Source: Chitinophaga chungangae (GTDB taxonomy: Bacteria; Bacteroidota; Bacteroidia; Chitinophagales; Chitinophagaceae). Taken from it: a stretch of DNA of 64,000 nt. Of the stretch, positions 41,554 to 53,356 are shown in pieces; the first letter of the stretch is position 1, and every line of letters begins with the position of its first letter. The notes under the pieces are model-generated. The model was not told the origin of the DNA. It was given only the letters and a program-made list of their open reading frames with translations, and searched no databases. The translations under genes were made by a program, and so were the position numbers. The DNA is taken from assembly GCF_017742215.1 (NCBI RefSeq), contig NZ_JAGHKP010000002.1, positions 347,050 to 411,049 of the forward strand. The letters are read 5' to 3'.

Positions 41554-41734
41554 CTACCAAATATTGCGAAAACACAATTCCGGGCAACTAATGCAAATTT
41601 ATTTTAATGCAAAAAATCATTCATATCAGGTCAGGAATGGCGAGTGCGGGGAATATGTATCTTTGCGGGCGGAGAGAGGGCCTGAATTAACAATTACATA
41701 ATGTTATCTTTTCATGAATGGGCGATATGCTGAT

Positions 41735-41742
41735 TAATTTTG
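41735..41742 (+). promoter_or_regulatory. -7 promoter element (TAATTTTG) of the PhoB-like regulator
   Basis: Exact TAnnTTTG match 21 nt before the ATG at 41764. A second exact match (TATCTTTG, 41658-41665) lies further upstream and could be an alternative promoter. Confidence 0.55.
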
Positions 41743-41763: not shown

Positions 41764-42453
41764 ATGTTGATGGAACCTTCAGTAGCAGTAGGAAAAATCC
41801 TGGTAGTAGACGATGAGACGGATATTCTTGAGATCATCAGCTATAACCTGAAGAGCGCCGGGTACGATACCGTTACAGCGAAAGACGGGATTGAAGCGAT
41901 CCAGAAAGCGAAGATCTTCCGTCCGGACCTGATCATGCTGGATATCATGATGCCCAACAAAAATGGCATCGACACCTGCCGCGAGATCCGCAAGCTGCCT
42001 GAGTTCAAGGAAACCATGGTGCTTTTCCTCACCGCCCTCAACGACGAAAAAAGCGAGATAGAAGGGCTGAATATGGGGGCAGACGATTACATCGCCAAAC
42101 CCATCAAGCCGAAACTGCTCGTAAGCCGCATCAACGCCCTTTTCCGCAGGCTCAATAAAGTGGAAGAGCAGCAGATGCACCTGGGCGACCTGGTAATCGA
42201 CCGCGAAAAATTCACCGTAACATACAAAGGCGTGGAGATCATTCTCGCCAAAAAAGAATTCGAGCTGCTGCAGCTGCTCGCTTCCAAACCGGGCAGGGTA
42301 TTCCTCCGCAACGAGATCCTCAACCAGGTATGGGGCACCGAAGTGATCGTGGGAGACCGCACCATCGACGTGCATATCCGCAAGATCCGGCAGAAGCTGG
42401 GCGTAGACCTGATCACCACCGTTAAAGGCGTAGGCTATAAATTCGAACTGTAA
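41764..42453 (+). CDS. PhoB-like response regulator
   Basis: A 229-residue OmpR/PhoB-family transcription factor. Receiver domain with Asp16/Asp17, phospho-acceptor Asp60 (LIMLDIMMPNKNG) and the Lys in AKPIKPKLL; C-terminal winged helix with LAKKEFELLQLLASKPGRVFLRNEIL and TIDVHIRKIRQKLG, a close PhoB-like recognition segment. It lies 60 bp upstream of a PhoR-like kinase and at one edge of a set of phosphate-uptake genes, so I infer phosphate-starvation control. An in-frame TTG at 41740 overlaps the -7 element, so the ATG at 41764 is preferred; a second ATG follows two codons later. Confidence 0.88.
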   Translation: MLMEPSVAVGKILVVDDETDILEIISYNLKSAGYDTVTAKDGIEAIQKAKIFRPDLIMLDIMMPNKNGIDTCREIRKLPEFKETMVLFLTALNDEKSEIEGLNMGADDYIAKPIKPKLLVSRINALFRRLNKVEEQQMHLGDLVIDREKFTVTYKGVEIILAKKEFELLQLLASKPGRVFLRNEILNQVWGTEVIVGDRTIDVHIRKIRQKLGVDLITTVKGVGYKFEL

Positions 42454-42513: not shown

Positions 42514-43626
42514 ATGGCAAGTAAAAAATTTGGCTTAATTTCCCTTTATTACAAAAATTACTCACTCTGGAGTATGTTCAAAGCTAAGAACCTTTCGCCG
42601 CAGAAGCTGGCGGGCTTTACAGCGCTGGTGCTTTCCGCCATTATGGCCACAGGCTGCCTTATCATAGGCGCCTCCTACCGGGAAACCCTCATCGCTTTCG
42701 CCCTCACTTTCCTCGTGGCTTATTACCTGTACCTCTATACCCTGCAGAACTTCATCTACCGCAAGATCAAGCTCATCTACAAATTCATTTACCAAACGAA
42801 AGCCTCCAAACGGGAAGATTTTTTCAACAAAAACATCCTTCCGCTCAAAACGATCGACGAAGTAAGTGAAGACGTGGAAAAATGGGCTTCGCAGAAAAAA
42901 GAAGAGCTGGATAACCTGCGCCGCAACGAAGCCTTCCGCAAAGAGTTCCTGCTCAATCTTTCCCACGAGCTTAAAACGCCCATTTTCGCCGTGCAGGGCT
43001 ACATTCACACCCTGCTCGATGGCGCCATCGAAGATCCTTCGGTCAATAAAATGTTCCTTAAGAACGCCACCAAGAACATCGACCGCCTCTGCCGGCTGAT
43101 CGACGATCTCGACGAGATCTCCAAGCTCGAAAGCGGTGAAATGACCATCAACAAAGAGCTTTTCGTGATACAGGACCTCGTGAAGGACGTGTTCGACACG
43201 CTCAGCATCAAGGCCAAACAGAAAGACATCAAGTTCAGCATCAAAAAAGGCTGCGAAGCGCCCGTGCATGTAAATGCCGATAAGGAAAAGATCCGCCAGG
43301 TGCTGATCAACCTCATCGAAAACTCCGTGAAATACGGCAAGCAGGACGGGCAGACCATCGCCAGCATTTATAACATGGACGGCAAACGCGTGCTGGTGGA
43401 GATCTCAGACACGGGCATCGGCATGGCGGAAGAACATCTTCCCCGCGTGTTCGAGCGTTTTTACCGCACGGATCGCGCGCGCAGCCGCGACATCGGCGGC
43501 ACCGGCCTGGGCCTCGCCATCGTTAAACATATCGTGGAAGCGCACGAGCAGACCATCAACGTGCGCAGCAAAATAGAAGTGGGCTCCACCTTCGGTTTCA
43601 CCCTCGAGCTCGGCCGCGATACCTGA
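42514..43626 (+). CDS. PhoR-like sensor histidine kinase
   Basis: A 370-residue membrane kinase. Two hydrophobic segments (about 33-54 and 56-76) with almost no periplasmic loop, a linker, then HisKA with phospho-acceptor His151 in LLNLSHELKTPIFAVQGY, and an HATPase_c domain with the N box LINLIENSVKYG, G1 DTGIGM and G2 GGTGLGLAIVKHI. The lack of a periplasmic sensor domain is typical of PhoR, which senses phosphate status through the transporter and PhoU. It directly follows the PhoB-like gene. An ATG at 42574 (residue 21) is a possible alternative start. Confidence 0.88.
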   Translation: MASKKFGLISLYYKNYSLWSMFKAKNLSPQKLAGFTALVLSAIMATGCLIIGASYRETLIAFALTFLVAYYLYLYTLQNFIYRKIKLIYKFIYQTKASKREDFFNKNILPLKTIDEVSEDVEKWASQKKEELDNLRRNEAFRKEFLLNLSHELKTPIFAVQGYIHTLLDGAIEDPSVNKMFLKNATKNIDRLCRLIDDLDEISKLESGEMTINKELFVIQDLVKDVFDTLSIKAKQKDIKFSIKKGCEAPVHVNADKEKIRQVLINLIENSVKYGKQDGQTIASIYNMDGKRVLVEISDTGIGMAEEHLPRVFERFYRTDRARSRDIGGTGLGLAIVKHIVEAHEQTINVRSKIEVGSTFGFTLELGRDT

Positions 43627-43716: not shown

Positions 43717-44139
43717 ATGAAACATGCTTATCTCCTGCTGCTCGCAGCCGGGCTTTTCGCCGCATCCTGCAAAAAAGAAAACACGGACGTTGCAGTGCCT
43801 CACAGACCACCGGAAACGCTTGAAGAAAAAGCCAAAGGCACCGGTTTTTCGCTCACGGGCGGTTATTGGGTGATCACGCCCTCGATCATGCGTCACGACC
43901 AGATCGGCTATGGCCCGGACGCTTATGCTTTCCCCACGGACAGTACTTATGGAAGATTAATGCTCGGCGATATCGGCGAATCCGGTAAATATAAAGCGGT
44001 GGCCCAAAGCGGCACCGCGACGGTAACGTTCGAAATGGCGCCGGAGCGCAGCGACCGGCGTTATTACCTGCTGATAGAAAAGATTTCCTACCGTTACATC
44101 CGGGTCAACGGGTTGAACTTTTTCAGGAAGGAACGTTAA
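43717..44139 (+). CDS. Small lipoprotein of unknown function
   Basis: A 140-residue protein with a lipoprotein signal peptide: hydrophobic LLLLAAGLFAASC with the lipidation Cys at residue 18. The mature part has GFSLTGGYWVITPSIMRHDQIGYG and alternating strands that suggest a small beta fold. I recognise no family. It lies 90 bp after the PhoR-like gene on the same strand and may be cotranscribed. Its stop overlaps the convergent porin gene's stop by 4 bp. Confidence 0.75.
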   Translation: MKHAYLLLLAAGLFAASCKKENTDVAVPHRPPETLEEKAKGTGFSLTGGYWVITPSIMRHDQIGYGPDAYAFPTDSTYGRLMLGDIGESGKYKAVAQSGTATVTFEMAPERSDRRYYLLIEKISYRYIRVNGLNFFRKER

Positions 44140-45473
44140 AAACTGTATTGCAGCCTGGCGGTGAACACGTTGTCGTCCACATCATCTTCAAACCCTTCTA
44201 TGCCGGTGGATTCGTTCCATACGCGGTCGAACCAGAAAGTGGCCTTCATGTTTTCGTTGAAATAATACACATACCCGAAACCGAAGGTATCGTAACGGAT
44301 ATCGGCCATGGAAAGATGCGTGGTTAACGGGTTGGACAACTGTTTTCCTTTTACGTCGGTATTGGGGTCGTACCAGTCGTACTTCAGCCCCAGCTGGTGT
44401 TTTTCGCTGCCAAGGTGTTGCAGGAAGGTGAAGTATGCCCCGTCGAAGTTACGGATGTATAAAGGCGCAAAACCCGCGGGCGTAACGGGGATCACGCCGG
44501 GCGTTTCGCTGCGCTCGCGCGTGGCGGTTTGTATGCCGCGGATATATTCTCCCCTGAATTGCGTTGAGCCTTCCCTGTTAGGGATCACGAATTGCGCGTC
44601 TGCGCCGTAATAATGACGCGGAGCGATCTTGCCGATATTGGTCACGGCCGAATCCACCGTAAAGTCCGGATGGCCGTTAACCGCTTGACCCATCGTGTAA
44701 ATTTCTTTGGTAAACTGTTCCATGCCGCCGTAAAGAATGCTTGCGCCGGCAGACAGCAGCCAGCCCTGGCGGTTGATGCGCCTGGGTTTCATGGCTACGC
44801 GGGCGATGAGGTCTTTATTGCTGTCGAAATCCGCCGGTCCGGAAAGGCCCTGCCCGTTGAACAGGCCCACGTCTATTTTCAGCGAATGCAGCGGATGCGC
44901 TTTGTCTCTCGGCTCAAAAGTGAGCATCGCGCCCATGTCGCGCTCGCTTTTCATCAATATCTGCGACATGCGGCCGCGTTCGGGCGCTTCGCGGTCGCTG
45001 GAAGAAAGGTTCACTTCATAGCCGAACGGCCGCGCGAACATACCCATCGTAAGCGCCGCAACGTCCCAGCGGCCATCGAACACGCGGCCCCAGAAATCGC
45101 GGATGTTCACGCCGCGCTCCGTGCCGTCGAACTGGAATACGAACTGTACGGTTGGAAGATTTCTTTTGTTGTAATGCGCGTAGTCGAACTTCACCCGGCC
45201 ACGACGGAGCATGAAGCGGTTATTGCTGTTGCCCGTAAAGTTGCCGCCGGAATAAGTTTCGATGCCTTTGCCGGACGCATACTGGAACTGCGGCTGCATA
45301 TAGCCGCTGATGCGGAGGGCGTCGTAATGTTTGTACATGGAGATCATTCCCCTGCCCAGCCTGGTAGTGGTGTCGATCATGTCCATCAGGAATTGTGCTT
45401 TGGACGCGAACGAACTAAACATTAAAATTCCGATCAATATTACCTTCCGGGCGGTGGTCTTCCTGTTTCTCAT
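44136..45473 (-). CDS. Phosphate-selective porin O/P family protein
   Basis: A 445-residue outer-membrane porin. Signal peptide about residues 1-27 (MRNRKTTARK, then a hydrophobic stretch ending ASKAQ). The mature protein opens with SGYMQPQFQYASGKG, followed by RRGRVKFDYAHYNKRNLPTVQFVFQFDGTERG and continues as amphipathic strands to LQYSF, with a terminal Phe. This is the Porin_O_P pattern (PF07396) of OprO/OprP, which pass phosphate and polyphosphate. The location beside phoBR-like genes fits. The ATG at 45473 was chosen because it gives the positively charged signal start; it lies only 6 nt after a -7 element. Confidence 0.88.
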   Translation of the reverse strand: MRNRKTTARKVILIGILMFSSFASKAQFLMDMIDTTTRLGRGMISMYKHYDALRISGYMQPQFQYASGKGIETYSGGNFTGNSNNRFMLRRGRVKFDYAHYNKRNLPTVQFVFQFDGTERGVNIRDFWGRVFDGRWDVAALTMGMFARPFGYEVNLSSSDREAPERGRMSQILMKSERDMGAMLTFEPRDKAHPLHSLKIDVGLFNGQGLSGPADFDSNKDLIARVAMKPRRINRQGWLLSAGASILYGGMEQFTKEIYTMGQAVNGHPDFTVDSAVTNIGKIAPRHYYGADAQFVIPNREGSTQFRGEYIRGIQTATRERSETPGVIPVTPAGFAPLYIRNFDGAYFTFLQHLGSEKHQLGLKYDWYDPNTDVKGKQLSNPLTTHLSMADIRYDTFGFGYVYYFNENMKATFWFDRVWNESTGIEGFEDDVDDNVFTARLQYSF

Positions 45474-45479
45474 ACCGCG

Positions 45480-45487
45480 CAAAAATA
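45480..45487 (-). promoter_or_regulatory. -7 promoter element (TATTTTTG) of the porin gene
   Basis: Exact TAnnTTTG match ending 6 nt before the ATG at 45473, so transcription would begin at or next to the start codon. TTTG lies at about -33. Confidence 0.55.
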
Positions 45488-45502
45488 GCAAATGCGCGTT
45501 TC

Positions 45503-45563: not shown

Positions 45564-46973
45564 TTAGTAAGCGTTGTTCTGGGGGTTGAAATTAGCCCAG
45601 CCGGTGAGCCAGTTGGTGGTACCAAAAGCGCCGCGGAAAGTAGCCGTTTCGATCGCCGAGCCAGGGAAGGTGGCGAAAGTACCTGTCAGTGCGGGAGAAC
45701 CGGTCTGGGGCAGGAAGTTCGGGCTGGTCAGGTTAAAAGGATCGGTCAGCTTCACGTCAGCTGCGGAAGCGGCGATGAACGTGCCTACGCCGGCTTCTTT
45801 CAATTTAGCCAGGATAGGAGCAGCTGCTTCCGTGATCATCGCGTCTCTTTGAGCGGAGGTCATCGGGTTGGGATAACCGGCAGTGTAGAGGCGTGCGGTG
45901 GAAGAATCGGTCCAGGCAACTTTGTTGGTAGCTACTGTATAGATGATATTGTTTTTATAAGCGGTTGCCGCGTTAGCCAGCATGTAATCGTAAGTCGCTT
46001 TGGATTCGAAAGCCGCGCCGCCTTTTTGTGAACCGAGGATGATGGAGTTCAGGAACACGAAGTTGGTTGCTCTTCTCCAGCGGTTGCCGTAGTTGTGGTT
46101 GCTGGCAGTACCGGCAGCGCCGTTGGGGCCTACGATGGTCATGTTGGAAATTACCGGGCGGGTGAACGGGGTTGCAGCGGATGCAGTACCGTCGTTGTCG
46201 CACTCGATGCCGTTACCGGCGTCTCCCGGGTCTACGAATTTCGGGTCGCGGAGGGCTACAGCGTACTGTACGGTGCCCTGGAAACCGAAGTCGAAGTCGA
46301 AATCATCGTCCGCAGTAGCATAAGCTACCAGGTGTTTCGGGTTTACGGTGCCGCCGAAAAATTCGAAAGCATCGTCGTTGCCGTATGTAGACATTACATA
46401 ATCGATAGTGGTGCCGCTGCCTACGCCGCCGCAGGTCAGGGAGTTGGTTTCGGAGTTCTGAAAAGCTGCGATACCGGCGTATTCGATACGCACGTATTTC
46501 AGGATGCCGGAGTTGTCTGCAGCGTCTGTGCCGCCATAATGCTCGTCGATACCGCCTTCGATGAGGGGCTCGGTTTTATTGGTGGGCGCTTTACCCAGCA
46601 GTACGATGCCGCCCCAGTCGCCGGGATTGCGGCTGCCTGCAGGCCTGCCGGAAGTGAACACGATCGGTTTCTCCGCAGTGCCCTGCGCTACGATCTTGCT
46701 GCCGCGGGTGATGATCAGCGCGCCTTTTTCGGTTACGTCGCTTTTTATTACTGTGCCTTCCTGGATGGTGAGGGTTGCGCCATTTGTTACTTTAACGTAT
46801 CCTTTCAGGATCCAGGCCTTGTCGTTGGTGAGCGTTTTATTGGCGGAAATGTTGCCGGAAATGGTTTCGGGCAATACCGGCTCCAGGTCGTCATCATCCG
46901 TGTCGTTGTTACGGCAGGCGGAAAATGTAACGGCCGCTCCCAGCATGAAGGCAAGAAATTTTGCAAGTTTCAT
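45564..46973 (-). CDS. Beta-helix lipoprotein of the phosphate island
   Basis: A 469-residue surface or periplasmic protein with a lipoprotein signal (LGAAVTFSACRNND, Cys20). The acidic linker NNDTDDDD is followed by a region of repeated short strands with Gly-Asn-Thr turns (ISGNISANKTLTNDKAW, GDWGGIVLLGKAP, DNDGTASA), the pattern of a right-handed parallel beta-helix. I recognise no enzymatic motif. It is preceded by a four-unit Pho-box-like array and lies downstream of a TonB receptor gene, so it may be that receptor's partner lipoprotein. A terminator follows. Confidence 0.8.
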   Translation of the reverse strand: MKLAKFLAFMLGAAVTFSACRNNDTDDDDLEPVLPETISGNISANKTLTNDKAWILKGYVKVTNGATLTIQEGTVIKSDVTEKGALIITRGSKIVAQGTAEKPIVFTSGRPAGSRNPGDWGGIVLLGKAPTNKTEPLIEGGIDEHYGGTDAADNSGILKYVRIEYAGIAAFQNSETNSLTCGGVGSGTTIDYVMSTYGNDDAFEFFGGTVNPKHLVAYATADDDFDFDFGFQGTVQYAVALRDPKFVDPGDAGNGIECDNDGTASAATPFTRPVISNMTIVGPNGAAGTASNHNYGNRWRRATNFVFLNSIILGSQKGGAAFESKATYDYMLANAATAYKNNIIYTVATNKVAWTDSSTARLYTAGYPNPMTSAQRDAMITEAAAPILAKLKEAGVGTFIAASAADVKLTDPFNLTSPNFLPQTGSPALTGTFATFPGSAIETATFRGAFGTTNWLTGWANFNPQNNAY

Positions 46974-47011: not shown

Positions 47012-47019
47012 CAAAGATG
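47012..47019 (-). promoter_or_regulatory. -7 promoter element (CATCTTTG) of the beta-helix lipoprotein gene
   Basis: One mismatch to TAnnTTTG. It sits exactly 9 nt after the last unit of the upstream 11-bp repeat array, the same spacing as at two other promoters in the island. Confidence 0.5.
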
Positions 47020-47028
47020 TCAGTTGAA

Positions 47029-47068
47029 TGTTACAGGCACTTTAACAAAACATTACCGAATTGTTAAG
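47029..47068 (-). promoter_or_regulatory. Pho-box-like array, four 7-bp units at 11-bp spacing
   Basis: On the minus strand the units are CTTAACA, GGTAATG, GTTAAAG and TGTAACA, each separated by exactly 4 bp (unit ends at 47068, 47057, 47046 and 47035). Likely target of the PhoB-like regulator (inference). Confidence 0.7.
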
Positions 47069-47078
47069 CCCCTGTTCA

Positions 47079-49925
47079 TTATTTCTTTTTCCCCAATCCG
47101 AACTGGTAAGAAAATGTGAGCGACACGTTGGTGCCGTATTTGAAGCGGCTGATCAGCTGGTCGTCGCTGTTTTTCTTATAGCTCTTTTCATCCGCCCCAA
47201 CAGGGTTCTGATAAAAAACCGCATCGTTGTTCAGGATGTCGCTTACGTTGAGGCGCAGCTCACCTTTCTTTTTAATTACTTTTTTCGCTATCTGGAAGTC
47301 CAGGATGTTGCGGCCGTTCTCGTAGATGTCTGCATAGTTATCAAAACCTACCAGGTAAATACGCGGGCCGATCTTGTTATACAGCACGCCAAACACGAGG
47401 TCATTGTCTTCCGTGGCATACTGCAGCCCTGCGTTGATCAGGTACGGGCTCTGCCCCTGCAGCGCGCGTGAGCCGCCGTCTGACGTGTAACCCTGCAGGT
47501 CTACCGTAGAATAGATGTAGGAGAAGTTGGTGAACGCGGTAACGCGGTTGAAGAAAGGTTCTGAGCTGATGAAGTCGAGTTTTTTCCGCAGTTCCACCTC
47601 GAAGCCCAGGGCTGAAGCGGAAGGCGCGTTCCTGAACAGCAGCTGTCGCCTGTTCGGGGTAGATCCCGGGTCTACGTACTGCTCGATCGCGTCTTTGAAT
47701 TGTTTGTAGAACACGGAACCGGTAATGGCCTCGCCCACACCGGGGTACAGTTCGTACCGTACGTCCACGTTGGTGATGTTCGCGCGTTTCAGGTCAGGGT
47801 TGCCCTGTACGGTGCTGTAGGTCACAAAGTCGTAGTAAGTAAAATTGCTCAGCTCGCGCAGTTCAGGACGGCTCACCGTTCTTGAACCGGATAAACGGAG
47901 GTTTGATTTTTCGTTCAGCGCGTAAGAGATATTTGCCGAAGGCAGGAAGTCGAAATACGTGATATCTTTTTTGATGCGTTTGCCGGAGATGTCCGCCGTT
48001 TTGATGTATTGGTAATAAGATTCGCCGCGGCCGCCCCAAACGATCCTCCATTTGTCGCCGATCTTGTTGTCGAACTGCACATAACCTGCCATCAGGTCGG
48101 AGTTGGCGGAGTATTTATCGGAGTTGTTGGTGATCTCGTTCATCACGAAACCGTTCCTGCTGATATTCCCGTCTGCAAATATCTCCCCGGGGCCGAGCTG
48201 CAGCAGGCTTTGGTCGTGATTGGCAAAATCCGTCCAGATATAACCCAGCACGCGCGCGCTGAATTCACGCTGCCTGTAAAGTTTCTGGCCGCCGATCTTC
48301 ACGCTCTGCTTTGCGCCCGAAATGCTGAACGGTACGGTGAGAGACGCCATGCCGCCGATATTGTCTTCCGTCATCAGCGAATAAAAGCGGGATGCCTGTC
48401 TTGAAGCGGAACCGAAAGGTATCTGCGCTTCGTACGGCCTGCCGGAGCCCAGGTCGCTTTTGTAAGAAAGGATCTTCATATCCGGCTGGTCGCGGTCTAT
48501 CAGCGAGTAGTTCAGGTTCCAGTCCAGTTTCCAGTCTTTTTTGTTCAGTTTATGACTGCCTTCCAGCTGCGAGTTCAGCAGGGTTTTCATCACCAGCTCC
48601 TGGCTGGTTACCTGCTGGTCGCCGATGATGTCGTAATTGGTGCCGGAACGGTCGGTGAAGTTATTGTCCAGTATGCGGTTGAAGAGGTTTTTGAAAGATA
48701 CCTTGTTGTTGCCTTTCACATAAGTGAAGTTGGCGATGGCGCCGAGGCTGGTATTATATTTATAGATGTTGTCGGTATAATTGTAGCTGGCCGCTTTGCC
48801 GCTTTCGTAATCGTATCGGTTGCCCGGCTGGATGTTTTCCGCGTTGCGGTAAGTAAGACTGATGATGCTGCCGAAGGAGCCGTCTTTTTTCAGGCGGATG
48901 CGGTTGCCCCAGGTAAGCTGGTAAGACTGCGAAGGCAATGCCGCGCCGAAGTTCTGCGTGGCGAAGGTGTTTTTAAAATCCTTCGTCAGTTTCAGCTGCT
49001 GCTCCTGGCCTTCGGTAGTGTTGCCGAGGTTGGAGTATTTGGCGCGGGTGGAAGGGAAGGAAGACGGCAGGCTGCGCAGGCCGTCGTCGAAGCCCAGCCA
49101 GTCGGTCTTACCGCGCTCCATACCTTTCGTATCCTTAAATGTGCTTTGTGTGTTGTAACCATAACCGATGCTGATGCCGATATAGTTTTCGGTGGGAATG
49201 TCTTTCGTATATACCTGCACCAGGCCGCCGGCAAATTCGCCGGGCATTTCGGGCGATGCGGTTTTGTTGATCACGATGTTGTCGATCAGGTTCGACGGGA
49301 TGATGTCGAAGGAAAACGTTTTCCTGTCAGGCTCGGTGCTGGGCAGAATGGCGTTGTTGATCGTGGCGGTGTTGTAACGGTCGCTGAGGCCGCGCACGAT
49401 AATATATTTGTTGTCCTGGATGGAAGCGCCGCTCACGCGTTTCAGCACTTCGGAAGTATTGCGGTCCGGAGAACGGCGGATGCTTTCGCCGGAAATACCG
49501 CTGGAAATGCTGGGGTTGTTTTTCTGCGCAACATACAGCGCATTGATGGTTTCCTGTTTGTAAGAGCCGCGGATCACGACTTCTTTCAGGTCTTTGGACC
49601 TGGGCTCGTCCAGCGCAATGTCCAGCGTGGTCACCTGCCCGTTCTTCACCACTACTTCCGAAATGGATTTGGTGGCATAGCCCATGTATTTGAAATCAAG
49701 GGTATAGGTGCCGGGGTCCAGCTGGAGAAGATAACGGCCTTCCACGTCGGTAACGGCGCCTTTGGAAGTGCCCTGTACCAGTACTGTTACGCCGATGAGC
49801 AGCTCGCCCGTTTTTTTGTCGGTCAGTTTACCGGTTACTTTACCGGTAGTGTTTTGTGCCTGGACGTTGAAACATCCCAATAATAAAATCCCGATTAATT
49901 GTACAACGATAATGCTACGTTTCAC
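47079..49925 (-). CDS. TonB-dependent receptor of the phosphate island, GTG start
   Basis: A 948-residue outer-membrane receptor. Signal peptide about residues 1-24 (NVQAQ), N-terminal carboxypeptidase-like domain (about 27-115: KVTGKLTDKKTGELLIGVTVLVQG), plug domain (about 130-245, with RYNTATINNAILPSTEP and EMPGEFAGGLVQVYTKD) and a large barrel to LTFSYQFGLGKKK. It has no SusD partner; the next gene is the beta-helix lipoprotein. A seven-unit Pho-box-like array lies upstream, so it probably imports a phosphorus-containing ligand during phosphate starvation (inference). The start codon is GTG; no ATG precedes the signal peptide. Confidence 0.88.
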   Translation of the reverse strand: MKRSIIVVQLIGILLLGCFNVQAQNTTGKVTGKLTDKKTGELLIGVTVLVQGTSKGAVTDVEGRYLLQLDPGTYTLDFKYMGYATKSISEVVVKNGQVTTLDIALDEPRSKDLKEVVIRGSYKQETINALYVAQKNNPSISSGISGESIRRSPDRNTSEVLKRVSGASIQDNKYIIVRGLSDRYNTATINNAILPSTEPDRKTFSFDIIPSNLIDNIVINKTASPEMPGEFAGGLVQVYTKDIPTENYIGISIGYGYNTQSTFKDTKGMERGKTDWLGFDDGLRSLPSSFPSTRAKYSNLGNTTEGQEQQLKLTKDFKNTFATQNFGAALPSQSYQLTWGNRIRLKKDGSFGSIISLTYRNAENIQPGNRYDYESGKAASYNYTDNIYKYNTSLGAIANFTYVKGNNKVSFKNLFNRILDNNFTDRSGTNYDIIGDQQVTSQELVMKTLLNSQLEGSHKLNKKDWKLDWNLNYSLIDRDQPDMKILSYKSDLGSGRPYEAQIPFGSASRQASRFYSLMTEDNIGGMASLTVPFSISGAKQSVKIGGQKLYRQREFSARVLGYIWTDFANHDQSLLQLGPGEIFADGNISRNGFVMNEITNNSDKYSANSDLMAGYVQFDNKIGDKWRIVWGGRGESYYQYIKTADISGKRIKKDITYFDFLPSANISYALNEKSNLRLSGSRTVSRPELRELSNFTYYDFVTYSTVQGNPDLKRANITNVDVRYELYPGVGEAITGSVFYKQFKDAIEQYVDPGSTPNRRQLLFRNAPSASALGFEVELRKKLDFISSEPFFNRVTAFTNFSYIYSTVDLQGYTSDGGSRALQGQSPYLINAGLQYATEDNDLVFGVLYNKIGPRIYLVGFDNYADIYENGRNILDFQIAKKVIKKKGELRLNVSDILNNDAVFYQNPVGADEKSYKKNSDDQLISRFKYGTNVSLTFSYQFGLGKKK

Positions 49926-49945
49926 GATCTGTTTTATTTATGCCG

Positions 49946-49953
49946 CAAAACTA
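49946..49953 (-). promoter_or_regulatory. -7 promoter element (TAGTTTTG) of the island TonB receptor
   Basis: Exact TAnnTTTG match 20 nt before the GTG start, and 9 nt after the last unit of the upstream repeat array. Confidence 0.65.
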
Positions 49954-49962
49954 CCGGGAGGG

Positions 49963-50031
49963 TATTACGCCTGTGTTAAGCCAATATTACCAGAATGTTA
50001 ATTGTTAAGAAATGATTAAAAAATCGTTAAC
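49963..50031 (-). promoter_or_regulatory. Pho-box-like array, seven 7-bp units
   Basis: Minus-strand units GTTAACG, TTTAATC and CTTAACA are 11 bp apart. Directly abutting, units ATTAACA, GGTAATA, CTTAACA and CGTAATA are again 11 bp apart, the last ending 9 nt before the -7 element. The array is thus one three-unit and one four-unit block. Confidence 0.75.
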
Positions 50032-50139
50032 CATTATCCCGGGCGCAACAGTTCAACGTTTAAAAAAAGGGTATAGGTGAGATAGGACGTGCCGGAGAAC
50101 CGGCTGGAGTACTCAATAAGGGGGCTTTCAGAGGGTTTT

Positions 50140-50514
50140 TCAACTAGCTTTGTTTTGCCTGGTCAGCTGCTCGATGGATATATCCAGCTGCCGGTCTGCC
50201 CCACTCCCGCTGCATGGCGTGATCTGGAACAATCGCAGGCTTTTATTCATGAATGGTTTCGAATCCTGGTTGCACAGCTCGAGCGAAAAATGGAACTTTT
50301 CTTCAAGCTCTTCTTCAAATTCACGCAGGCTGAGGGTTTCGTCGATAGGATGTTCCACCATCACGTCTTCCTCCAGCCCCGCTTCGCGGAGCGTGTCAAA
50401 TGCATTGGCAAGGGAATGGTGAATGTACACCGCCGCGTTGCAATGAAGCAACCGCTGTATCTGCATCTGAAGTAAGGATATCGTCATTAATGGATGTAAC
50501 TTGAGCGTCTTCAT
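50140..50514 (-). CDS. Uncharacterised 124-residue protein with a Pho-box-like promoter
   Basis: No signal peptide or membrane segment. Residues 1-35 are mixed with several Met, Leu and His; residues 45-80 are strongly acidic (EEDVMVEHPIDETLSLREFEEELEEKF) and probably helical; the tail is polar. I recognise no family. Evidence that it is a real gene: an exact -7 element 20 nt upstream with a four-unit 11-bp repeat array before it, and location inside the phosphate island between the TonB receptor and the metallophosphoesterase. Codon use looks ordinary. It could be a regulator or adaptor; nothing stronger can be said. Confidence 0.6.
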   Translation of the reverse strand: MKTLKLHPLMTISLLQMQIQRLLHCNAAVYIHHSLANAFDTLREAGLEEDVMVEHPIDETLSLREFEEELEEKFHFSLELCNQDSKPFMNKSLRLFQITPCSGSGADRQLDISIEQLTRQNKAS

Positions 50515-50534
50515 CTATATACTAGCTGGTTTCC

Positions 50535-50542
50535 CAAACTTA
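50535..50542 (-). promoter_or_regulatory. -7 promoter element (TAAGTTTG) of the 124-residue protein gene
   Basis: Exact TAnnTTTG match 20 nt before the ATG at 50514; 9 nt from the last repeat unit. Confidence 0.65.
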
Positions 50543-50551
50543 CGCCGGCAA

Positions 50552-50591
50552 GGTTAATTAAATATTACCGCAAGGTTAATTTAAGTGTAAT
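50552..50591 (-). promoter_or_regulatory. Pho-box-like array, four 7-bp units at 11-bp spacing
   Basis: Minus-strand units ATTACAC, ATTAACC, GGTAATA and ATTAACC, each 11 bp apart (start positions 50591, 50580, 50569 and 50558). The gap to the -7 element is 9 nt. Confidence 0.75.
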
Positions 50592-50613
50592 TTCCTGTTC
50601 CTTAATTGTACGG

Positions 50614-51444
50614 TCAGGTACCCGGAAAGGTGACTACTTTGGCTACCGCGGCCCATTCCGCCAGGCTCGTCTCTTCTTCCTCTTCCACCGCCGGCGCTTT
50701 TTTATCGGCATGCTGGTAGAGCTTCCATTCGCCCTGGTGATATTCCAGCGAGGTGAGACTTTCCACCCAGTCCCCGGAATTGAGATAGGTAATGATTTTG
50801 CCGTTGAAGCGCATCTCCTTGATCTCGGGCTGATGGATGTGGCCGCAGCATACTACGTCGAACTGTTTGTCTACGGCTATCTCCGCCACCGTCTGCTCGA
50901 AATCCGAAATAAATTTCACCGCCTGTTTTACGCTTTCTTTTACTTTTTTGGAGAAAGACATCTTTTCACGGCCCATTTTTTCGAGCAGGTTGTTCACCAG
51001 GCGGTTGAGGATAATAAGGATATCGTAGCCTTTGCCCCCGAGCTTGGCGAGCCATTTGGAATTTTTCATGGTCACGTCGTACACGTCTCCATGGAAAAAC
51101 CAATGCCTTTTGCCATCCACTTCCAGGATCAGCTTGTTGTCAATCACAAAATTGCTGAGCCCGAAACCGGCGTATTTGCGCAGGGCTTCGTCGTGGTTGC
51201 CGGTGAGGTAATACACTTCCGTGCCTTTGCCGATCATTTTGAGGATGCGGCGGATCACTTTGGTATGGGATTTCGGGAAATAACGTTTGCTGAATTGCCA
51301 GATATCGATAATATCCCCGTTCAGCACGAGAATACGCGGATCGATGGAGTCCAGGTAATGGACGAGCTCTTTTGCGTGACAGCCGTAGATCCCGAGGTGT
51401 ACGTCGGAAATGACAACAATATCTAATGGTCGTTTGTCGGACAT
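50614..51444 (-). CDS. Metallophosphoesterase, PlcP-like
   Basis: A 276-residue calcineurin-like phosphoesterase. The metal-ligand motifs are complete: SDVHLG (Asp14, His16), GDIID (43-47), GNHDE (82-86), HGD (118-120) and GHIH (201-204). The middle of the protein (DGKRHWFFHGDVYD, KWLAKLGGKGYDILIILNRLVN and NSGDWVES) resembles PlcP, the phospholipase C that degrades phospholipids so membranes can be rebuilt with phosphorus-free lipids under phosphate starvation; the similarity to LpxH-type UDP-diacylglucosamine pyrophosphatases is weaker. This is recalled family knowledge, not a search result. Position in the phosphate island favours PlcP. A clear promoter and Pho-box-like array were not found directly upstream. 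Confidence 0.78.
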   Translation of the reverse strand: MSDKRPLDIVVISDVHLGIYGCHAKELVHYLDSIDPRILVLNGDIIDIWQFSKRYFPKSHTKVIRRILKMIGKGTEVYYLTGNHDEALRKYAGFGLSNFVIDNKLILEVDGKRHWFFHGDVYDVTMKNSKWLAKLGGKGYDILIILNRLVNNLLEKMGREKMSFSKKVKESVKQAVKFISDFEQTVAEIAVDKQFDVVCCGHIHQPEIKEMRFNGKIITYLNSGDWVESLTSLEYHQGEWKLYQHADKKAPAVEEEEETSLAEWAAVAKVVTFPGT

Positions 51445-51561
51445 TTTTCAGGTATTCGGGGAAAATCCGGTCTCCTTCAAACTATTTAATATGAATTTTG
51501 TTAGTTATGTGTTTGGGTGTACCGGAGCCCGTTTTTTCTTCCGCAAAGGAAAAAATGCTAT

Positions 51562-51601
51562 ATTACTTTTATATTAATCCAGTGTTACCAAAACATTAAT
51601 T
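51562..51601 (+). promoter_or_regulatory. Pho-box-like array, four 7-bp units at 11-bp spacing
   Basis: Plus-strand units ATTACTT, ATTAATC, GTTACCA and ATTAATT start at 51562, 51573, 51584 and 51595, exactly 11 bp apart. They are further from the -7 element (35 nt) than in the other three arrays. Lies in the divergent gap between the metallophosphoesterase and DUF47 genes. Confidence 0.65.
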
Positions 51602-51674: not shown

Positions 51675-52325
51675 ATGGGAGGCTTTAATTCTATTGTGAA
51701 ACTGTTCATGCCGAAAGACAGGGTATTTTATTCTCTTTTTGAAGACGTGGCGGCTAACCTTGTGGAAATGGGCAAAGTGCTGGTGGAACTGGTGGAAACC
51801 AAAGATATGTCTGTCAGAAAAGACAAAGTGAACCTGATCGAGCGGTTAGAGCACAAAAACGATGACTATACCCATCGCATTTTCGTAGAATTGGGCCAGA
51901 ACTTCATCACCCCGTTCGACCGGGAGGATATCCACTACCTGGCCTCCACGCTGGACGACGTGGCCGATTACATTCACGGCTCCGCCAAACGTATCGATAT
52001 TTACAAGGTGAACGAGATCAACGACAGCGTGCGCAAGCTCGCCCAGCTGATCAACGAAGGCGTGCAGGAGCTGGCGCGCGCCATCCCCGAATTGCGCACC
52101 ATGAGCAATATGCGGGTGATCACCGATGCCTGTGTGAAGATCAACAGTCTGGAGAACCATGCGGATGACATCTACGACCGCGCCATTGCAGACCTTTTCG
52201 AGCAGGAAAGCAACGCCGTGGAGCTGATCAAGATGCGCGAGATCTATCAGGCGCTGGAAATCGCTACCGACAAGTGCGAAGATTCCGCCAACGTGATAGA
52301 AACCATTATCATCAAATACGCATAG
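51675..52325 (+). CDS. DUF47 / PhoU-like phosphate-transport regulator
   Basis: A 216-residue all-helical protein of the DUF47 (PhoU-like) family, which pairs with PiT permeases and is thought to gate them or report phosphate status. It opens with MFKLFMPKDRVFYSLFEDVAANL-like sequence and carries the internal metal-binding type motifs EHKNDDYTHRIFVEL and ENHADDIYDRAIADLF, which match the ExxxD(H)xxD pattern of PhoU bundles. The pit gene starts 17 bp downstream, forming one operon. Confidence 0.9.
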   Translation: MGGFNSIVKLFMPKDRVFYSLFEDVAANLVEMGKVLVELVETKDMSVRKDKVNLIERLEHKNDDYTHRIFVELGQNFITPFDREDIHYLASTLDDVADYIHGSAKRIDIYKVNEINDSVRKLAQLINEGVQELARAIPELRTMSNMRVITDACVKINSLENHADDIYDRAIADLFEQESNAVELIKMREIYQALEIATDKCEDSANVIETIIIKYA

Positions 52326-52342
52326 CCGCAAACTGCATCCTC

Positions 52343-53356
52343 ATGGCTTTTTTAGTAGTAATCATCATACTGGCTTTCATTTTTGATTATATCAACGGTT
52401 TCCACGACGCGGCCAACTCCATCGCCACCATCGTGTCTACCAAGGTGCTCACGCCGTTCCAGGCGGTATTGTGGGCGGCCCTTTTCAATTTTGCGGCCTT
52501 TTTTGTTTCCAAATACATTTACGGGGAGTTCAAAGTGGGCAATACCATCGCGAAATCAGTGTTCGAGCAGTTCATCACCCTCAAGGTGATCTTCTCCGGC
52601 CTGGTGGCTGCCATCGCCTGGAACCTGCTTACCTGGTGGTACGGCATCCCTTCCAGCTCTTCCCATACGCTCATCGGCGGCTTTATCGGCGCTGCCGTAG
52701 CCAACGCCGGCGGCTCATTCGACGTGATCAACTATGCCAAAGTATTGCCCACGGTGTATTTCATCGTACTGGCACCCTTCATAGGGATGGTGGTGGCTTT
52801 CATCATTACGGTCATTATCGTCAATATCTGTAAAAGAGCCAATCCGTACCGCGCGGAAAACTGGTTCAAACGCCTGCAGCTCGTGTCTTCGGCCGCCTTT
52901 TCGCTCGGCCACGGCGGCAACGACGCGCAGAAAGTAATGGGCATCATCGCGGCGGCCATGGTGGCTCACGGCGGTATTCCGGGGGTAAAAACCATTACCG
53001 ACGTGCCGGACTGGGTGCCTTTCGCCTGCTTCACCGCCATCGGCCTGGGCACGCTCAGCGGCGGGTGGAAGATCGTAAAGACCATGGGCACGCGCATCAC
53101 CAAGGTAACCCCGCTGGAAGGCGTTAGTGCCGAAACAGCGGGCGCCATCACGCTGTACCTCACGGAATCTTTCGGCATCCCGGTGAGCACCACGCACACC
53201 ATTACCGGTTCCATTATCGGCGTAGGCGCTACCAAACGCCTCTCCGCCGTTCGCTGGGGCGTAACGGTGAACCTGCTCTGGGCCTGGATCCTGACCATTC
53301 CCATCAGCGCATTGCTGGCGACCGGTGTATACTTCGTCGTAAATCTCTTTATTTAA
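52343..53356 (+). CDS. pit: PiT-family inorganic phosphate permease
   Basis: Low-affinity, proton-coupled inorganic phosphate permease. The 337-residue protein has about ten membrane segments and both PHO4 signatures: FDYINGFHDAANSIATIVST near the N-terminus and SAAFSLGHGGNDAQKVMGI in the middle, each with the conserved GxNDxxx core, plus IPVSTTHTITGSIIGVG near the end. Start at ATG 52343; an upstream extension overlaps the DUF47 gene. A strong terminator follows at 53381. Confidence 0.94.
   Translation: MAFLVVIIILAFIFDYINGFHDAANSIATIVSTKVLTPFQAVLWAALFNFAAFFVSKYIYGEFKVGNTIAKSVFEQFITLKVIFSGLVAAIAWNLLTWWYGIPSSSSHTLIGGFIGAAVANAGGSFDVINYAKVLPTVYFIVLAPFIGMVVAFIITVIIVNICKRANPYRAENWFKRLQLVSSAAFSLGHGGNDAQKVMGIIAAAMVAHGGIPGVKTITDVPDWVPFACFTAIGLGTLSGGWKIVKTMGTRITKVTPLEGVSAETAGAITLYLTESFGIPVSTTHTITGSIIGVGATKRLSAVRWGVTVNLLWAWILTIPISALLATGVYFVVNLFI

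Follow-up and report, generated by a model that had tools for sequence, protein, structure and literature searches.

Four promoters in a 64,000-nucleotide stretch of the Chitinophaga chungangae genome (contig NZ_JAGHKP010000002.1, positions 347,050 to 411,049; hereafter "the window", with coordinates counted from its first letter) carry arrays of short direct repeats with an 11-bp period, located upstream of a beta-helix lipoprotein, a TonB-dependent receptor, a 124-residue protein and a calcineurin-like metallophosphoesterase. We interpret these arrays as Pho boxes, i.e., 11-nt direct-repeat operators likely bound by the PhoB-type response regulator encoded at 41764, a reading to which we give a probability of about 0.88. 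By analogy with known phosphate operators, they most likely switch phosphate-scavenging genes on at phosphate shortage. Judged from the sequence, their classification as Pho boxes of Bacteroidota, a variant of an operator type already known, appears well supported.

Anatomy and register of the arrays

All four arrays are oriented on the minus strand, and their unit is best described as (G/T)TAACATTsn, in which TAA is nearly invariant. A preliminary description of the window had given the unit as NTTAACN, a less suitable description, and had noted GGTAAT(A/G) in three of the arrays, where it is indeed present. In 4/4 arrays, the last TAA starts 22 nt ahead of the TTTG end of a -7 element of the Bacteroidota type (TAnnTTTG). 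The pattern KTAA-n7-KTAA-n15-TTTG has four matches in the window vs. 0.03 expected, a count reached by 0/100 dinucleotide shuffles. Across 336 combinations (16 periods x 21 distances), these four matches fall in the cell of period 11 and distance 15, and no other cell reaches two. The 11-bp spacing, first described as holding in every case, does so generally, but the array of the TonB receptor has one 7-bp step between registers, which separates four in-register units from three offset ones and is also present in a congener (G006). The lowest-scoring of the four precedes the 124-residue protein (Table 1).

The 9-nt gap between the last unit and the -7 element, initially reported for three arrays, is real, but is found in all four once the fourth is taken on the minus strand. 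Because it lies on that strand, in the same register to TTCCTTTG, the fourth array faces the metallophosphoesterase (50614-51444) and not the DUF47-pit genes to which it had been assigned.

Conservation in the family and across the class

A search of 117 genomes of this family for homologs of the TonB receptor gave a match in 116, and all 29 loci returned for other genomes were read. The strict rule (period 11, distance 15) is satisfied upstream of 16/29 homologs, each of the other 142 combinations of period 6-16 and distance 9-21 being found in at most one of the 29 regions. The remaining 13 carry arrays that miss the strict rule, as seen by eye and with a matrix for which they were part of the training set. 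A sequence-only model, R1, was built from 26 of the 29 TonB sites of relatives (L037, L039 and L040 were omitted for their low scores), with the window excluded. The matrix behind the scores given below for the regulator, dnaB and the metallophosphoesterase is likewise devoid of window sites, whereas the one that recognised the 13 arrays, also used in a first scoring of metallophosphoesterase orthologs and for strand scoring in the window, was trained partly on window sites.

Over the 6.04-Mb genome, R1 places the window arrays at ranks 1 (TonB receptor), 2 (lipoprotein), 3 (metallophosphoesterase) and 5 (124-residue protein), with seven more matches that are weaker. Since R1 gives three strong matches and the rest are weak, strong arrays are few in this genome. 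Rank four (C7:760555, E = 0.0145) is the best other candidate of the genome, an array-like site (L055 4520-5150, at G000:C7:760.5 kb) that precedes a protein of 158 residues whose start resembles a signal peptide. The strict pattern alone was discarded as a genome-wide finder, with 10 matches vs. 7 in a backward control; four of the 10 are the window arrays, two lie inside long opposite-strand open reading frames (ORFs), one inside a same-strand ORF, and three are isolated (C7:760609, C9:515315 and C8:1036218).

The preliminary description had proposed to ask whether matches of a genome scan with a matrix of the units are enriched at pst, phosphatase and other phosphate genes, and the model trained on TonB promoters does recover such genes, the pst part in relatives only. 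At E<=0.01, R1 has a match in 57/60 family genomes. Among the 105 matches listed with E<=5e-4, 88 were taken and assigned to the next downstream gene, leaving out three from the genome itself, 13 before already known TonB homologs (two of which are second matches on counted arrays) and one at a contig end. The genes behind these 88 matches include receptors (17 close homologs of that in the window, with blastp E<1e-60, and 22 others of TonB/CarboxypepD type), 13 metallophosphoesterases, eight lipoproteins of the window type, five heads of pst operons, five dnaB genes, three PhoX, and one each of a 451-residue outer-membrane-like protein also found in the window (p451), a purple acid phosphatase, a type I phosphodiesterase-like protein and a glycosyltransferase. 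As a control, 318 kb around 60 GldM loci (of 80 fetched) gave no match at E<=0.01, and two weak ones (0.014 and 0.036).

In the genome itself, neither PstC (at E<=1e-20) nor PstB (above the curated cut-off) was found, so that the pst operons could be assessed in relatives only; its phosphate uptake may rest on DUF47-Pit. The pstC gene is present in 31/98 genomes searched. Among its 35 upstream regions (second copies counted), an array is present in 14 at E<1, in 14/14 cases on the operon strand, and in 10 of these at E<=1.4e-4; eight of the 10 best had already surfaced in the blind scan, five at E<=5e-4 and three near 0.002. The array-type pst operons begin with a gene for an outer-membrane-like protein of ~400 residues, the order being array, this gene and a PstS above the curated cut-off in 6/6 operons (L197, L195, L190, L221, L189 and L198). 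The pst-head proteins scanned belong to no Pfam or NCBIfam family.

Orthologs of the metallophosphoesterase, chosen independently of the model, occur in 47/60 genomes, and 29 loci outside the genome itself were read. Upstream of 28/29, the score exceeds that of all 116 coding control windows, vs. 2/29 on the reverse strand; the strict rule is satisfied at a gap of 15 in 4/29 and at a gap of 14 in another count of 4/29. Here, as for dnaB, the controls are coding sequences only, the first controls having held array-bearing flanks (maxima 53.9 and 14.6). We consider it rather unlikely that the fourth array (51544-51599) serves mainly the DUF47-pit genes, e.g., as a shared divergent operator. Its place between the metallophosphoesterase and DUF47 would allow it, as would the facing arrays that DUF47 has of its own in 5/8 Flavobacterium genomes and in two genomes of another family, but register and orientation suit the metallophosphoesterase, no array scores on the DUF47 strand of the window (best matrix score -25.0), and in one relative in which the two genes lie ~10 kb apart (L336), the match still precedes the metallophosphoesterase.

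At E<=0.01, R1 has matches in 60/148 genomes of the class, including 57 from other families, against an expectation of ~1.5 there if the E-values, which are rough, can be trusted. These other families returned 28 loci, and in 23 of them the match lies before a phosphate or cluster gene: five receptors (two of them just ORFs of 112-113 residues), five pst-head homologs (one weak, E = 9e-9), three PhoB-type regulators in three families, two lipoproteins, two PstS-type proteins, two DUF47, and one each of p451, phosphate-selective porin O/P, a Na/Pi cotransporter and a phosphoinositide phospholipase C. The rest consists of four unknown genes and one false match to a terminator. The unit, its period, its register, its orientation and the gene set behind it are conserved over genera and families.

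In Flavobacterium, where 30 of 44 listed matches were read, R1 arrays precede DUF47 in 5/8 genomes (E = 0.004-0.045), the receptor in 5/8 (0.011-0.093) and the lipoprotein in 1/8 (0.011). In six genomes, a match before a RimK-like gene was rejected as a terminator hairpin; the same false match recurs in the class-wide scan as L433. Four Flavobacterium genomes (L332-L335) show the order kinase, regulator, receptor and lipoprotein, which is that of Fjoh_0543 to Fjoh_0546 in F. johnsoniae. As F. johnsoniae is absent from the loci returned, we equate its PUSIV/phoBR cluster with that of the window on gene order and domains, which are the same (PMC8115612). In its Table 1, the 'FC' values (log2 by usage in the text) upon phosphate depletion are 0.76 for PhoR (Fjoh_0543, not significant), 3.06 for PhoB, 8.02 for the receptor and 9.91 for the lipoprotein Fjoh_0546, the last two being strongly induced; the words 'Pho box', 'promoter' and 'DUF47' are absent from the text of that paper. 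Separately, an array-like conserved stretch (CTTAACAATTTGGTAACATTGA..AACTTAACATTGG) with no clear gene occurs in 7/8 Flavobacterium genomes (L310, L312, L313, L314, L316, L321 and L322), followed in several of them by a hairpin-like ACCAACGC..GCATTGGT; it could be a small-RNA promoter or adjoin a terminator.

The regulator, known Pho boxes and competing explanations

The regulator at 41764 has a receiver and a Trans_reg_C domain with a kinase adjoining, as expected of an OmpR/PhoB-type response regulator, and its best two NCBIfam families are TIGR02154 and NF053854 (PhoB). Its DNA-binding stretch reads RTIDVHIRK, vs. RTVDVHIRR in E. coli PhoB. Regulator and kinase accompany the receptor, the lipoprotein and DUF47-pit in 4/16 family regions of ~20 kb (L154, L155, L341 and L343), the pair being out of view in the other 12. 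The promoter of the regulator bears a two-unit word, TTAACAATTAC ATAATG, that the preliminary description had overlooked. This box is placed 22 bp more upstream than the units of the arrays, and its score of -0.7 is barely over the best of 12 Markov replicates (-2.4). A word TTAACAAT-n3-ATAAT precedes the regulator in 4/4 relatives read, its distance to TTTG being identical only in L341 and shorter by one base in L154. Regulator and receptor are divergent genes in Flavobacterium and have the receptor's array region in common, and no array faces the regulator.

Four sequence hallmarks of Pho boxes are found here: tandem direct repeats with an 11-nt period; a fixed site where the -35 element would otherwise lie, ~10 nt upstream of the -10/-7 element; a position upstream of phosphate-uptake and -release genes genome-wide (with dnaB, unassigned genes and 21/35 pst regions without a match as exceptions); and presence before the regulator's own gene (in three families by the model and as the weak two-unit box in the window). 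The CTGTCAT word of the E. coli type is absent, the unit consensus being (G/T)TAACATT. Nearly the same word and period characterise the PhoP box of B. subtilis, made of TTAACA-like repeats, although promoters and gene set differ. The preliminary description was right about the kind of element when it spoke of a diverged Pho box, but the box closest to the arrays is the cyanobacterial one of SphR, CTTAACCT, composed of at least three 8-bp direct repeats (PMC1906773), and not that of E. coli. Arrays and SphR box share tandem repeats at an 11-bp step (8 + 3), a TTAAC core, a PhoB-type regulator and phosphate genes; they differ in that the arrays mostly have at least four units, a (G/T)TAACATT core, a distance of 22 nt to the Bacteroidota -7 element (TAnnTTTG), and a gene set composed of TonB receptors, lipoprotein and metallophosphoesterase. 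The E. coli box, with its two 11-nt direct-repeat units (CTGTCAT; PMC4415409) located ~10 bp upstream of the -10 element (PMC1906773), resembles the arrays in repeat length and in its place relative to the -10/-7 element, and differs in its word, its shorter extent and the type of its -10 element.

Within Bacteroidota, the PhoP/PhoR-type regulator of Riemerella anatipestifer binds upstream of its own operon and of dnaG, with a DAP-seq motif core, TTTAACA (PMC9603813), that shares TTAACA in vitro with the arrays; an 11-bp array and a phosphate gene set are both absent from the available passages, and pstS is up in the mutant (PMC5399024). The PhoB of Bacteroides fragilis is required for pst expression and binds the promoter of pstC, no binding word being given in the accessible passages; 'motif', 'consensus' and 'repeat' are absent from the text (PMC3547664). 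Marine bacteria, flavobacteria perhaps among them, have putative Pho boxes predicted at their plcP clusters, and plcP is induced by phosphorus starvation in the flavobacterium Dokdonia sp. MED134; the passages concerned contain no word, array or geometry (PMC4796936). Beyond the Riemerella core, our searches of open-access PMC text yielded no sequence of a Bacteroidota Pho box.

Direct repeats of 10-11 bp are common to OmpR-type regulators, and another member of that family (WalR-, RpaB- or ArcA-like), with phosphate genes as part of its targets, is an improbable though conceivable binder of the arrays. The Riemerella core is reported to be similar to the E. coli ArcA motif (PMC9603813), and dnaB carries an array in 13/30 genomes. 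Opposed to this are the conserved grouping of the regulator with the kinase, the receptor and the lipoprotein, the word shared by the regulator promoters of the window and of 4/4 relatives, the R1 matches before PhoB-type regulators in three other families, and a gene set typical of phosphate starvation. That the period stems from A/T tracts in phase, through intrinsic bending or as AT-rich promoter DNA of the UP-element type, is barely credible: the units are AT-rich and spaced by one helical turn, but the word has conserved K, C and ATT positions, occurs in one orientation and one register to TTTG before a narrow set of genes, exceeds the control on the reverse strand of just 2/29 metallophosphoesterase upstream regions and is missing from the 318 kb of GldM regions at E<=0.01.

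Several observations nevertheless weigh against phosphate operators bound by the regulator at 41764. With 217.9 and 205.4 bits, the regulator misses the curated PhoB cut-offs of 296.2 and 270 and is thus no PhoB equivalog by that measure, while the regulator promoters of relatives score low with the full model (-6.3 to -29.6). In Flavobacterium, R1 is weak (array E from 0.004 to 0.09) and a terminator hairpin is the best match in several genomes; in the F. johnsoniae cluster, PhoR and the adjoining OprP are not significantly induced (PMC8115612). The 8-fold increase of pstS in the Riemerella PhoPR-type mutant (PMC5399024) misfits simple activation, if that regulator is an ortholog. As to the genes, 11/88 family matches are unassigned, dnaB is not a phosphate gene, and 21/35 pst regions have no R1 match at E<1; two of these are ~1.5 kb and too short for the operon head, and the others suggest that many pst operons are without the box.

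If the arrays are Pho boxes, phosphate shortage would lead the partner kinase to phosphorylate the PhoB-type regulator, most likely that at 41764, which would assemble head to tail along the 11-bp units. With the last TAA at a fixed 22 nt from the TTTG end, the subunit on the last unit would sit at the position of the -33 element, replace it, contact the sigma factor and recruit RNA polymerase to a promoter that has only the Bacteroidota -7 element. Here, we infer by analogy with the PhoB family which protein binds, its phosphorylation, the activation and the contact with sigma.

Neighbouring genes, dnaB and significance

The features of the window are collected in Table 1. The lipoprotein, whose name 'beta-helix' is that of the preliminary description, has no Pfam family, and the Pfam scan assigned no known family to the 124-residue protein, which, with a four-unit array of its own, is a candidate new member of the phosphate regulon. 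By analogy to PlcP of F. johnsoniae (Fjoh_4577, pf12850; PMC8115612 Table 1), the metallophosphoesterase is a candidate phospholipid-remodelling enzyme. For p451, Pfam and NCBIfam gave no family and the PDB sequences no convincing match, so a role as phosphate porin finds no support there.

Table 1. Arrays and genes of the window, with strands and supporting evidence.
Feature	Coordinates	Strand	Details
Two-unit box and -7 element before response regulator	41687..41742	+	TTAACAATTAC ATAATG at 41687-41708; -7 element TAATTTTG at 41735-41742
PhoB-type response regulator, receiver + Trans_reg_C	41764..42453	+	Pfam, NCBIfam, synteny; listed ORF opens at 41740, ATG 41764 likelier start
Sensor histidine kinase, HisKA + HATPase_c, PhoR/PnpS-like	42514..43626	+	Pfam, NCBIfam (below curated cut-offs), synteny
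Outer-membrane-like protein p451 (451 residues)	44136..45491	-	homologs with array in G020 (L079) and L425
Beta-helix lipoprotein	45564..46973	-	position beside TonB receptor and two-component pair matches Fjoh_0546 (FII)
Array before beta-helix lipoprotein	47012..47067	-	units TTAACAATTCG GTAATGTTTTG TTAAAGTGCCT GTAACATTCAA at 47024-47067; -7 element CATCTTTG ending at 47012; R1 E 5.0e-7 (whole genome)
TonB-dependent receptor	47079..49925	-	PF13715, PF07715, PF14905; domains as in Fjoh_0545
Array before TonB receptor	49946..50034	-	4 units at 49958-50001, 3 shifted by 7 bp at ~50000-50032; -7 element TAGTTTTG ending at 49946; R1 E 3.6e-8
124-residue protein	50140..50514	-	kept in congener G006 (63% identity)
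Array before 124-residue protein	50535..50590	-	4 units at 50547-50590; -7 element TAAGTTTG ending at 50535; R1 E 0.041 (genome-wide), 4.3e-4 (window)
Calcineurin-like metallophosphoesterase	50614..51444	-	Pfam
Array before metallophosphoesterase	51544..51599	-	4 units at 51556-51599; -7 element TTCCTTTG ending at 51544; R1 E 3.7e-6 (genome-wide); arrays upstream of orthologs
DUF47 (PhoU_div)	51675..52325	+	Pfam, NCBIfam; followed by Pit-type phosphate transporter at 52274-53356

In 13/30 dnaB upstream regions of relatives (L378-L407), an array outscores all 300 coding control windows, and one further region (L400) has an array on the reverse strand; the window's own genome lacks a dnaB array. 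A promoter-like TAnnTTCG element lies 21-37 bp before the first scored unit in 13/13 of the array-bearing regions, and this position of the array, downstream of the element, suggests repression. One operator might then do two jobs, activating phosphate scavenging from upstream and repressing the replicative helicase from downstream of the dnaB TAnnTTCG, by which starvation would directly brake chromosome replication, a tentative idea that we regard as possible without favouring it. The binding of Riemerella PhoP upstream of dnaG (PMC9603813) is a loose parallel.

Both phoBR and large responses to low phosphate were already known in Bacteroidota. With its fixed promoter geometry, a defined operator of this kind would make the phosphate regulon largely readable from sequence across the class, and would assign receptors, lipoproteins and enzymes of unknown function to phosphate acquisition. 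It also suggests how an activator may work at a promoter with only a -7 element, and raises a possible link to dnaB.

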